From positions 868,001 to 932,000 of the forward strand of contig NZ_JABEKX010000002.1 in the NCBI RefSeq assembly GCF_013407595.1: a DNA stretch of 64,000 bases. The letters run 5' to 3'. Shown here piece after piece: positions 7,331 through 10,955 of the stretch (its first letter is position 1; each line of letters opens with the position of its first letter). The stretch is from Lacticaseibacillus absianus. Its GTDB lineage: Bacteria > Bacillota > Bacilli > Lactobacillales > Lactobacillaceae. A model generated the notes under the pieces. The model saw only the letters and a program-made list of their open reading frames with translations. It did not search any database and was not told the origin of the DNA. The position numbers and the translations under genes were made by a program.

Positions 7331-9067
7331 TTACGCCTCCTTCGCCTTTTGGGTCTCGTAGATCTTGCGGTAGACATCACTGGACGCGACCAGCTCGTGG
7401 TGCGTGCCTTGCGCGACTAAGCGTCCTTCATCGAGGACCAGGATCGTATCCGCGTGCACGACGCTGGAGATCTTCTGGGCAATGATGATCGTCGTTGTCC
7501 CTTGCAGTTCCCGGTCGAACGCCTCCTGGACCAACTTCTCTGACCGGGCGTCTAGCGCTGACGTTGAATCGTCGAGGATCAGGACTTTCGGCTGCTTGAT
7601 CACGCCGCGCGTGATCGACATCCGCTGCTTTTGACCGCCGGAAAAATTGTTCCCACGCTCTTCCACCGGTGCGTCATAACGCTCCGGTAGCCGCTCGATG
7701 AACTCGGCCGCCTGCGCGATCTTGGCGGCGCGGTCCATCTCCTGCGTCGTCGCGTCTGCCTTACCTTGGCGTAAGTTGCCCGCGATGGTCCCGGAAAACA
7801 GAATCGCTTTTTGCAAGACGATCGAGATCGTGTTGTGAAGCGTGGCCTGCGACACATGGCGCAGGTCCTGGCCGCCGACACGCACGGTCCCTTCAGTCGG
7901 ATCGAAGAGCCGTGGGATCAGCTGGGCCAGCGTCGACTTACCGGCGCCGGTCGCGCCGACCACCCCGACCATCGATCCGGCCGTTAACTTGAAGCTGATG
8001 TCCTTGAGCGTCGGCTGGGCGTCGTTCGGATACGCGAAAGTCACGTGGTCGAACTCAACGGTGCCCGCCAGGTCCTCGACGGCCTCGGTGTCATAGGTCA
8101 TCGTCACAGGCGTATTCAGCACCTCGGCGATCCGCCCCATTGACACGAACCCGCGTGAGGCGAACATCGACATCATGCCGCCCATGATGATGGCAAACAT
8201 GATCTGCATCATGTACTGGATGAATGACATGATCCCGCCGAGCTGGTCCTGCGCGACACTCGGGCTCTGGGTGACGACCGTCGATACCAGCCAGATCGCT
8301 AGGAAGATCGCCAGTTGCGAGATCACCGTGAAGGCTGGGATCATCGCTGCAAACGTGTACCCCACCGCCAAGTTGTGGCCGTTGAGCTCATCTGACGCCG
8401 CATCGAACTTGGCCGCCTGACTGTCCTCTTGGACGAACGACTTGACGACGCGCGCGCCGCGCAGATTGTCTTTCGCGATCCCGTTGATCTTGTCGATCAG
8501 CCGCTGGAACGCCGCGAAGTGTGGGCCCATGCGGCCCATCGAGACGCCGGTGACCGCCACGATCAGCACGACCATCACCACGATGATCCACCACAGCCGT
8601 GGCATGGTCATGATCGAGAGGATGAAGGCGCCGACGAACAGCAGTGGCACGCGGATCAGCACCTGGAAGACCATCATCAGAAGCATCTGGATCTGGTTGA
8701 TGTCATTGGTCATCCGCACGACCAAGTTCTCCGACTTGAATTTTTCGATGTCTTCATAGGAGAACGTCTGGATCTTGCGGAACGTCTGCTCACGCAGATC
8801 GGCGGACACCGTCTGGGCGAGCTTGGCCGCCGCCAGGGTGTTGAGCACCGACCCGATCAGGCCCATCACAGCGATGGCGATCAGGCCAAGGCCGTAACCG
8901 CTGATCTTGTCGATCTTCTTGGTGGTTGACAGCGAGAGATCCGCCATCACGCTCAGGATCTCCTTCATGTAGCTGGGTTGCCACAGTGCGGCCCCCACCT
9001 GCAGGAGCATCATCAGCACGGCGACCGTGACCAGGCCTTTGTGCTTCGCGATTGCTTTGCCTACCAT
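7331..9067 (-). CDS. Heterodimeric ABC exporter subunit (degenerate-site half)
   Basis: A 578-residue half-transporter: six membrane helices, then an ATPase domain with Walker A (GATGAGKST), signature [10 protein letters not shown] and Walker B ending [10 protein letters not shown]. The catalytic Glu is thus Asp, complementary to the DEATS of the partner encoded 2 bp downstream. It is first gene of a two-gene operon expressed from the promoter at 9177-9205 through a leader of about 100 nt. ACGGAGGG precedes the ATG. This operon sits where rplS normally follows trmD. Confidence 0.88.
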
Positions 9068-9170
9068 ATCGTATCCCTCCGTTGTTCACGTCCGCTCTCT
9101 TGCCCACACGAATGGCGGATCCCCGCACACGGCGTGGCCCGTCTTGGGCATTGAGATCAAAGAGCAGCGG
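9068..9170 (-). promoter_or_regulatory. Structured 5' leader of the second ABC exporter operon
   Basis: The transcript from 9177 would carry about 100 untranslated nt. Its ends pair: TCCGCTGCTCTT near the 5' end with AAGAGAGCGGA near the 3' end (one bulge), enclosing further GC-rich pairing. No U-run terminator is visible. It could be an attenuation or stability element; nothing identifies a ligand. Confidence 0.4.
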
Positions 9171-9176
9171 ATTTGG

Positions 9177-9205
9177 ATTATACGCTTATTTAGATATAGT
9201 GACAA
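9177..9205 (-). promoter_or_regulatory. Promoter of the second ABC exporter operon
   Basis: On the minus strand, -35 TTGTCA (9200-9205), a 17-bp spacer and a perfect -10 TATAAT (9177-9182). The -35 overlaps that of a divergent plus-strand promoter. Confidence 0.75.
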
Positions 9206-9228
9206 GCAATTTACTCAATTAATTTAAT
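9199..9228 (+). promoter_or_regulatory. Putative plus-strand promoter of the structured RNA
   Basis: -35 GTGACA (9199-9204), an 18-bp spacer and -10 TTTAAT (9223-9228) in an AT-rich patch. The predicted start is around 9235, where the GC-rich hairpin region begins. It shares its -35 bases with the exporter promoter on the other strand. Confidence 0.5.
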
Positions 9229-9235
9229 TGTTTAT

Positions 9236-10020
9236 TGCGGTCGACCAGGCCGAGGCCCGAGTCGTTTTAGTTGTCAAACCCACGGGCCCGCAGTAGACTG
9301 CAGGTAATCCAGGGAGGTTCCGCCGGGTGATCGCGTCAGCGCAACGAGACCGGTAACCCGACGGACAGCCGAAGTCATCCAGGGGCATTGCGTCCTCGGT
9401 AGGCTCAACCCGGAGTATCGATACGGTGAGGCGCGGCGGACCATACACACGCTAGCTGGTTGAAATTGGGTGACACCACCGGGCACAAGGCAAGACGGTG
9501 GTGATCGGTGCAACTGCACGCTGCCACGCCAGACGGTCTGAATCTGGCGGGATAACCAAGACGGTGACGCAGACTGACCGCGTCACCACCCGGCCGGTCG
9601 ATGGCAGACCGTTCACCCCCGGCCGGGCGCCCCCGCGGGGCAGCCGCGGTAGTCAGCCAAAGGCGTCCTCAGGTGCCCTGGGGGCGGCTTTGGTGTGTCT
9701 GAAAACTCCAGAGCGGAGAAGCGCGGTCATGCGGGTTGGGCTAAGGCGGCCTAACGTGAGGCCCCGGGCTTGGGCCTTGCGTTGGAACGACTTAGACCGC
9801 ACCCACATGCGCTTCGCAGCTCGACGAACCAGAGCGGCGCAAAGCCGCCCTTAGCGGGACGGCTAGCCTAGCCGGACACATGCAGCGATGCTTCATGTGT
9901 CCTGCGGCGTGAGGCGAAGCCGAACGGAAGCAAGACATGCCCGCGTTGCGAGTCCGTAGCTCGACGAAAGTCGGGAAGCAGTACGCAAGCTCCCACCGTT
10001 GCTCAGTCCCCACCCAACGT
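9236..10020 (+). ncRNA. Candidate large structured non-coding RNA (about 0.8 kb), family unknown
   Basis: No believable gene occupies this GC-rich stretch, but it is dense in helices read on the plus strand. Examples: 9474-9481/9496-9503 (8 bp), 9527-9533/9543-9549 (7 bp), 9563-9570/9580-9587 (8 bp), 9589-9597/9619-9627 (9 bp), 9656-9662/9688-9694, 9748-9752/9759-9763 within 9723-9728/9795-9800, 9834-9838/9844-9848, 9860-9865/9869-9874, 9875-9882/9894-9901 (8 bp), and 9962-9965/9970-9973 capped by GAAA. The GAAA cap and a GGC-GAA-GCC element favour the plus strand. A promoter fits its left edge. CGGTCG (9238-9243) could close with CGACCG (10105-10110), so the 3' end is uncertain. Size and density recall GOLLD, ROOL or OLE RNAs, but no motif lets me assign one. 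RNase P, tmRNA and SRP RNA signatures are absent. Confidence 0.55.
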
Positions 10021-10149
10021 CAGCCCCCAAAAACACAATGTCGCGCGCAACCAGGCTCGAGCCTGCGTTAGACCGACTGCACCCATGCCACCACAAGTGC
10101 CCAACGACCGGTCTCCCCAGTTTGACCATCTCCTCGGCCCGCCCTGACG

Positions 10150-10185
10150 CAAAAACAAGCCTGACCGCCACTCGACGGTCAGGCT
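10150..10185 (-). terminator. trmD terminator
   Basis: On the minus strand a perfect 11-bp stem (AAGCCTGACCG and its complement, 10157-10167 and 10175-10185) is followed by GTTTTTG. It cleanly ends the rpsP-trmD operon before rplS. Confidence 0.9.
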
Positions 10186-10199
10186 TGCAATATCGATGA

Positions 10200-10955
10200 T
10201 CAGGCTTCATCCGGTGCGCTCACCGTCCGGGCTTCACGTTCGACTTCACGCAACAGTTTTTGCGCGTTCTTGTCCAGTGTCAGCGTCTCTAGAAGGTCCG
10301 GCCGGCGCTCGTAAGTTCGCCGCAACGACTCTTTGAGTCGCCACTGCGCGATCAGCTGGTGGTTCCCGTTTTGCAACACCTCCGGCACCGCCATCCCCCG
10401 GTAGACCGGCGGCCGGGTGTATTCCGGATAGTTGAGCAGGCCGTCTTCGAAGCTATCGGTCGCGGCGCTTTGCTCATTACCGAGCACCCCGGGCAAAAAG
10501 CGCACGGTCGCGTCGATCATCATCATCGCCGGCAACTCGCCGCCGGTCAAGACAAAATCGCCGATCGAGTATTCGTCGGTGACCAGGGTGCGGATGCGCT
10601 CATCGTAGCCTTCATAATGGCCACAGATGAACACCAAGTGCGCCTCTTGCGCCAGTGACTTAGCCGCCACATGGTCGAACTTGCGCCCGGCCGGGTCGAG
10701 CAAGATCACGCGCTTAGGCCCAGGGGCCGCCGCATCCAGCGCGTCCATCGCCTCGAACAATGGCTCGGGCTTGAGCAGCATCCCTGCACCGCCACCGTAT
10801 GGGGTGTCGTCGACGTGATTGTGCTTGTCGTGGGTGTACTGACGATAGTCGATGACATTGAATTGCATCAGGTCGCGCTCAAGTGCTTTGCCGATGATCG
10901 ACTGCTGAAGCGGCGCAAACATGTCAGGAAACAGGCTCAACACATCAATCCGCAT
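10200..10955 (-). CDS. trmD: tRNA (guanine-37-N1)-methyltransferase
   Basis: A 251-residue SPOUT-class enzyme that methylates G37 of tRNAs using S-adenosylmethionine and so prevents frameshifting. Visible hallmarks are the N-terminal [24 protein letters not shown], the knot segment around [11 protein letters not shown], and [13 protein letters not shown]. Length is normal. The start codon lies 11 nt inside the end of rimM, indicating coupling. The usual downstream gene rplS has been displaced and a strong terminator follows. Confidence 0.97.

Follow-up and report, generated by a model that had tools for sequence, protein, structure and literature searches.

A gap beside trmD in Lacticaseibacillus absianus appears to combine a putative structured-RNA gene with interspersed rod-shaped repeat units

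The gap beside trmD in a 64,000-nucleotide stretch of Lacticaseibacillus absianus DNA (hereafter the window, meaning the whole stretch that was analysed) is very probably a composite of several interspersed repeats rather than one giant RNA, as judged from the comparison of its copies. The original prediction had proposed a giant GOLLD-, ROOL- or OLE-like RNA here, whereas the region resolves into a multicopy element of ~440 nt followed by two widespread units of ~120 nt, each folding as a rod. On our overall reading, which we consider probable, the 5' part is an RNA gene and the rod units are mobile elements that seek 3' ends, where their fold would act as RNA structure. The gap had been described as lying between trmD and rplS, but the neighbour of trmD (10200-10955, minus strand) across the gap is an ABC exporter (7331-9067, minus strand).

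The absence of a plausible gene in the gap, as originally proposed, was borne out, since none of the seven gap ORFs tested, all of 54-118 aa, matched Pfam. A coding origin was rejected on that result and on the 1-nt indels found among copies. Rfam 15 assigned the gap to no family, and a search of positions 9000-10400 at E<=5 returned a single chance-level match (14.7 bits, where the gathering score is 55); the earlier suggestion of structured RNA belonging to no known Rfam family is therefore supported, with compensatory changes in both parts of the composite. Models for GOLLD, ROOL, OLE and HEARO gave no matches, whether the whole window was searched at gathering scores, positions 9000-10400 at E<=5 or 17 copy loci at E<=1; the group II intron models of Rfam were equally silent in all three sets, and the 17 copy loci matched no other Rfam family at E<=1. 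The only match in the window at its gathering score was a ribosomal protein L21 leader (RF00559; 61718-61787, minus strand, 42 bits). The gap folds more stably than 20 shuffles on the plus strand (z -3.06) and likewise on the minus strand (z -3.63). Because both strands fold stably, fold energy by itself is no proof of RNA, and the evidence that follows is comparative.

Querying the L. absianus genome with positions 9230-10190 gave 59 matches, itself included. The composite recurs at near full length at three further sites (80-87% identity), its first ~460 nt recur alone at five more, and many short matches derive chiefly from the right half of the query. Across 60 genomes, L. absianus included, 15 contained matches, and those in other genomes came from the right half, save two short, marginal ones (G004, E 0.001; G039, E 0.003). 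Alignment of the copies places the repeated sequence at ~9258 to 10048-10052, with a right half that is a mosaic and varies among copies (Table 1). These boundaries replace the single RNA that had been drawn from 9236 to ~10110 and leave its supposed closing helix (9238-9243 with 10105-10110) outside the repeated sequence. The promoter, formerly placed at the left edge, gives way to a conserved promoter-like box inside the element. The many predicted helices are real, and the nested group at 9723-9800 falls within one complete unit; the window does contain the exact GAAA-capped stem (9962-9973), although its cap is not conserved and recurs in only one of the other copies compared (L036).

Table 1. 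Features of the trmD-adjacent gap and its margin, in window coordinates.
Feature	Position	Strand	Basis or remark
5' unit (subfamily I), a putative promoter-bearing gene for a ~400-nt structured RNA	9258..9700	+	nine aligned copies
Promoter-like box, TTGTCA-17 nt-TAGACT	9271..9299	+	consensus scan; conserved hexamers and spacing
Strong 3' hairpin of the 5' unit, possible terminator	9656..9693	+	common to three subfamilies
Repeat unit 1 of the rod family	9708..9827	+	R1 covariance model, 84.3 bits, E 4.5e-18
Repeat unit 2, its usual apical part replaced by a nested hairpin	9829..9967	+	R1 covariance model, 46.8 bits, E 3.6e-9
Tail common to other composite copies	9968..10052	+	copies align up to 10048-10052
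Terminator-like hairpin 3' of trmD	10155..10188	-	outside the repeated element

The 5' unit looks like a structured-RNA gene of ~400 nt, since its promoter-like box is present in all 13 copies and its nine close copies share compensatory changes and a strong 3' hairpin. The element is ~440 nt long; the nine close copies in the L. absianus genome can be aligned from about 9256 to 9709, with upstream sequence unique to each, and four further copies form a diverged subfamily. Subfamily I comprises the window copy and L036-L040, subfamily II L041-L043, and subfamily III, also in this genome, L070, L072, L073 and L074, which are 97-99% identical and carry no trailing repeat units. Common to subfamily III and subfamilies I and II are the start, the motif GAAATCATCCARGG, a complementary GGATGA, the 3' hairpin and an arrangement of hairpin, TAATCAAG and hairpin. 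Each of the 13 copies has a TTGYYM hexamer, exactly 17 nt and then TAGACT or TACAGT (TASAST); the hexamers and their distance are constant while the spacer sequence varies, as expected of a promoter. Transcription is predicted to start near 9306, and the transcript would run from there to the 3' hairpin. This hairpin has no clear or strong U-tract, so that it is only a candidate site of termination.

The consensus fold of subfamilies I and II contains 127 pairs, 11 of which show two-sided change, and 98.3% of its 1142 cells are paired compared with 31-44% when partners are slid. None of 500 shuffles matched this pairing percentage and two matched the number of two-sided pairs, while 498 reached the observed number of further pair types. 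The clearest compensatory cases lie in three helices (alignment columns 274-301, 313-338 and 340-378); with nine closely related rows the helices are supported at small depth. By blastn, the window copy of the element matched none of the 29 other genomes of the genus, and a subfamily III query found just 27 nt of G010 (E 0.007) outside its own genome. The 68-nt core of the unit is too generic in look for a covariance model, and the exact 3'-hairpin pattern was searched in 301 Lactobacillaceae genomes; it gave 11 matches in L. absianus and none elsewhere, in a search that would miss diverged relatives. The unit matched no plasmid or phage, and two exact patterns from it matched nothing in IMG/VR, collections from which records of this genome or its near relatives may be absent; a plasmid, phage or viral origin is thus unsupported. 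In all nine close copies, a ~120-nt unit begins 4-7 nt after the 3' hairpin.

Both of the ~120-nt units in the window start with CCAGAGCG and end with GCTCGACGA. The unit folds as a rod of 37 pairs with no branch points, with conserved internal loops and ends, the ends pairing as GAGC/GCTC. Gathering units by their end motifs from loci of L. absianus and its relatives yielded 46, from which 39 of 110-127 nt were kept, reduced at 90% to 28 sequences and aligned with MAFFT (alignment A2); the resulting covariance model, R1, does not include the unit at 9708-9827 among its 28 sequences. In A2, a plain MAFFT alignment of units chosen by end motifs, with a structure drawn with one sequence in view, 91.8% of 1031 cells are paired and 30 of 37 pairs show two-sided change. 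No shuffle in 500 matched any of five measures, and pairing fell to 31-44% after sliding by 1-3 columns. A second alignment, A3, brings together 52 matches at 30 loci, of which 28 lie outside the genus and two (L256 and L257) in G027 of the same genus; here 94.6% of 1882 cells are paired and 34 of 37 pairs change on both sides, with no excess of further pair types (180 of 500 shuffles reach the observed count). Since A3 and A4 were fitted to the model, their pairing is biased towards it.

The unit has a fold energy of -40.2 kcal/mol on the plus strand and -28.9 kcal/mol on the minus strand, and G-U outnumbers A-C by 67 to 10 on the plus strand; both point to the plus strand as the one that folds. 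The natural reading is that this folded strand is RNA, although a single folded DNA strand could give similar strand-biased covariation. A nested hairpin module ending in GCCGAACGGAAGCAAG (~9874-9932 in the window) is inserted in the apical part of some units and occurs also in L041 and L057; its arms differ among copies yet stay complementary, and a similar hairpin lies near L023:1890-1935 in L. daqingensis.

At E<=1e-4, R1 matched 28 of 30 Lacticaseibacillus genomes, with 2 to at least 119 matches each, and had no match in the other two. It was also found in at least 65 of 301 genomes and at least 15 of 40 genera of the Lactobacillaceae sample, and in at least 8 of 246 genomes of the Lactobacillales order sample, where the carriers outside the family were two genomes of one genus. 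In these surveys at most 119 (genus), 11 (family) or 14 (order) candidates were scored per genome; copy numbers are lower bounds, E-values are rough and weak carriers may be missed. Two genomes of another Lactobacillales family (G412 and G433) had 4 and 8 R1 matches, partly in tandem, suggesting either transfer or an older origin. An exact pattern for the junction between two units occurred in 8 of the 30 genus genomes, with 21 matches in L. absianus, and its reversed control occurred in none of the 30.

The number of R1 matches per 400 kb was 52 in L. kribbianus (G006), 16 in G027 and 12 in L. absianus; three of the last (L295:12379, L296:4809 and L300:2211) resemble other palindromic repeats by eye and were kept in the counts. 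Extrapolated from the 52 in 400 kb, a genome may carry up to hundreds of units. Of those three look-alikes, L295:12379-12488 and L300:2211-2320 are two copies of a different palindromic repeat (GTGCCATAAC...GTTATGGCAC, then GTAACGTTCTGGAATAGTC) that R1 matches weakly.

The units stand head to tail in intergenic arrays, whose placement we examined in three 400-kb samples with genes called by ORF scoring; 54 of 55 arrays could be placed, one being dropped because it had no flanking gene. Forty-two of the 54 lie behind a co-oriented gene, compared with 27.8 in simulation (sd 3.7; reached in none of 2000), and 32, against 5.4 expected, begin no more than 75 nt from such a gene's stop codon, while only 2 occupy divergent gaps (12.2 expected). 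The arrays follow co-oriented genes because most start at a stop codon or directly after an intrinsic-terminator T-run. Twenty-five of the 42 co-oriented arrays have a run of four Ts no more than 14 nt upstream (6.7% of random intergenic positions) and 19 have a strict terminator there (1.2% at random), and another 12 begin at the stop codon. In a separate scan, a terminator-like site preceded 24 of the 42 and followed 5. The remaining 12 of 54 arrays are oppositely oriented; a T-run precedes just one of these, and several adjoin the Shine-Dalgarno region of a gene facing away. Among the A3 loci, a T-run precedes 9 of 35 arrays, and a stop codon, by eye, precedes many others.

Comparison of the trmD-downstream regions of related lactobacilli had been proposed as a check on the RNA. 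Compensatory changes were indeed found, among the copies, but the tie to trmD was not, because the first 500 nt behind trmD contain a unit in only 2 of 30 genomes of the genus (G023 covers just 143 nt there): L. absianus itself, on the opposite strand, and G013. The trmD neighbourhood of the composite is thus incidental. In four further genomes (G009, G005, G028 and G027) a same-strand unit lies ~630 nt behind trmD. Just after the trmD terminator of G013 there is an array, while the related terminator of G024 is followed by none; the sequences to either side can be aligned and G013 is longer by ~260 nt, so units were gained or lost at a terminator that already existed. At this one junction no target-site duplication was recognised by eye. 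The trmD gene of one genome (G018, locus L351) reads as two overlapping segments that differ in frame, with a TAA, which would reflect either a sequencing error or a disrupted gene.

Sequence comparison establishes the boundaries and copy number, the conserved pairing, the preferred strand and the location at gene 3' ends. We propose that the units may be small, non-autonomous and mobile, settling directly downstream of a stop codon or of a hairpin with a T-run, and we are slightly inclined to attribute their placement to insertion behind 3' ends. Such settling would explain why units lie after terminators, after the hairpin of the 5' unit and after each other, so that one rule could apply throughout: units occur 3' of a hairpin or gene end. 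The 12 oppositely oriented arrays and the A3 loci, with a T-run before only 9 of 35 arrays, count against this reading. A rod that directly adjoins a stop codon, or is reached by read-through, would be transcribed and might then serve as a 3'-end RNA structure, either an exonuclease shield or a back-up stop. Action at RNA 3' ends would put the fold under selection, and the deep covariation argues for the importance of the folded strand, either once a unit has inserted or in its spread. Behind terminators, read-through would be the sole source of unit transcripts, which weakens the case for a 3'-UTR role, and we advance the 3'-end RNA role of the rod tentatively. Reverse transcriptases or Y1 transposases are known from elements with such targets. 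In the L. absianus genome, Pfam PF00078 (reverse transcriptase) had no match and PF01797 (Y1 transposase) one partial match; both enzymes are missing from the unit-rich genomes of L. daqingensis (G001), L. kribbianus (G006) and L. parakribbianus (G010), and the search for these two identified no mobilising enzyme for the units. Spread by either enzyme was therefore rejected.

A 3'-end RNA role combined with tolerated mobility is the likeliest account, and a purely selfish one is nearly as good. In the latter, a single-stranded DNA fold serves spreading, gene ends are tolerated sites and the RNA has no function; the depletion of divergent gaps (2 of 54 against 12.2), the location behind terminators, the head-to-tail arrays and the occupied and empty trmD sites all fit such behaviour. 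We nevertheless consider it unlikely, because the 5' boundary falls within a few nucleotides of a T-run or stop codon, tighter than tolerance predicts, and because the Y1 transposase and reverse transcriptase are missing from the three unit-rich genomes. If the units were instead non-mobile, vertically kept cis elements of mRNA 3' ends, acting in stability or processing, the very strong covariation, the conserved internal loops and ends, the 12 of 42 co-oriented arrays directly at a stop codon and the shared position ~630 nt behind trmD in four genomes would be expected. Against this, copy number ranges from 0 (2 of 30 genomes) to at least 119 within one genus, positions differ by species, with 2 of 30 genomes having a unit within 500 nt of trmD, and many units lie behind terminators, which makes such an account distinctly improbable.

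Little remains of a single ornate ~0.8-kb RNA of the GOLLD, ROOL or OLE type, new or outlying, with a long-range closing helix. Dense helices, the lack of a gene and the near full-length composite at three other sites speak for it, but there is no Rfam match, the closing helix lies outside the repeat, the right half is a mosaic and the components are also found apart (units on their own in 28 of 30 genomes, subfamily III without units), so we rejected it as highly implausible. We also reject, with near certainty, a degenerate group II (IIC) intron with its insertion site behind terminators, because, although group IIC introns target intrinsic terminators (PMC4424553), as the units seem to, Rfam gave no group II match even at lax thresholds, the L. 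absianus genome has no reverse transcriptase and the unit is just 120 nt long.

Favouring the combination of an RNA gene with 3'-end-seeking rods, we consider a stronger formulation rather doubtful, namely that the units are an undescribed class of RNA-structured interspersed element across much of the Lactobacillaceae, lying 3' of terminator hairpins and then of their own, without a reverse transcriptase or Y1 transposase, and joined here by a new promoter-bearing structured RNA of ~400 nt. Should the favoured reading hold, a bacterial family of industrial importance carries a very abundant structured RNA family that lacks an Rfam entry, and whose rods shape the 3' ends of many genes and complicate small-RNA annotation; occupied and empty sites would then form a natural test set for how small repeats pick terminators. 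In a small-RNA study of L. casei BL23, conventional libraries were reported to over-call structured 3'UTR-derived transcripts (PMC8220740). These may include rod units, which is directly checkable.

Finally, we compared the rods with known systems. GOLLD, ROOL and OLE resemble the gap in having many helices over several hundred nucleotides, whereas the gap is multicopy and composite. REP elements with RAYT/Y1 transposases are high-copy intergenic palindromes in composite arrays; the rod unit is much longer, keeps a fixed head-to-tail orientation and is found in three genomes (G001, G006 and G010) without a Y1 transposase (PF01797). With group IIC introns the units share insertion at terminators (19 of 42 strict, 25 of 42 by T-run), a shared behaviour only, but they match no intron model, have no reverse transcriptase in their own genome and are far shorter. 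Nearest in style are the BOX elements of Streptococcus pneumoniae (PMC3049150), which with RUP and SPRITE are small, modular, variable-length interspersed elements in more than 100 copies per genome, with transcripts structured by prediction; the rod units are likewise dispersed, intergenic, modular and multicopy. As for BOX-type ends, those of the rod pair (GAGC/GCTC), and no duplication was seen by eye at the one occupied and empty pair. Compared with BOX by description, the rod unit differs in being a single rod of ~120 nt, in occurring in 15 of 40 sampled genera rather than in few species, and in a placement tied to same-strand terminator T-runs and stop codons. Nearest in size and fold are the enterobacterial ERIC elements, described in PMC2267715 as ~127 bp, intergenic, multicopy and forming a single long predicted stem-loop, to which the ~120-nt intergenic, unbranched rod of 37 pairs corresponds; on the same descriptive basis, the rod differs in its bacterial hosts, its head-to-tail arrays and its position behind terminators. 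Lactobacillales motifs listed with Rfam accessions in PMC2864571 are covered by the Rfam searches if still in release 15, Lacto-int, which has no accession, lying outside them. We regard the family as new because no Rfam model matches it and no description of the repeats was found in the literature covered, which excluded most subscription journals and all bioRxiv preprints. Matching no family tested, the rods hence constitute a new family of a known kind, the interspersed structured repeats, with an unusual rule of placement.
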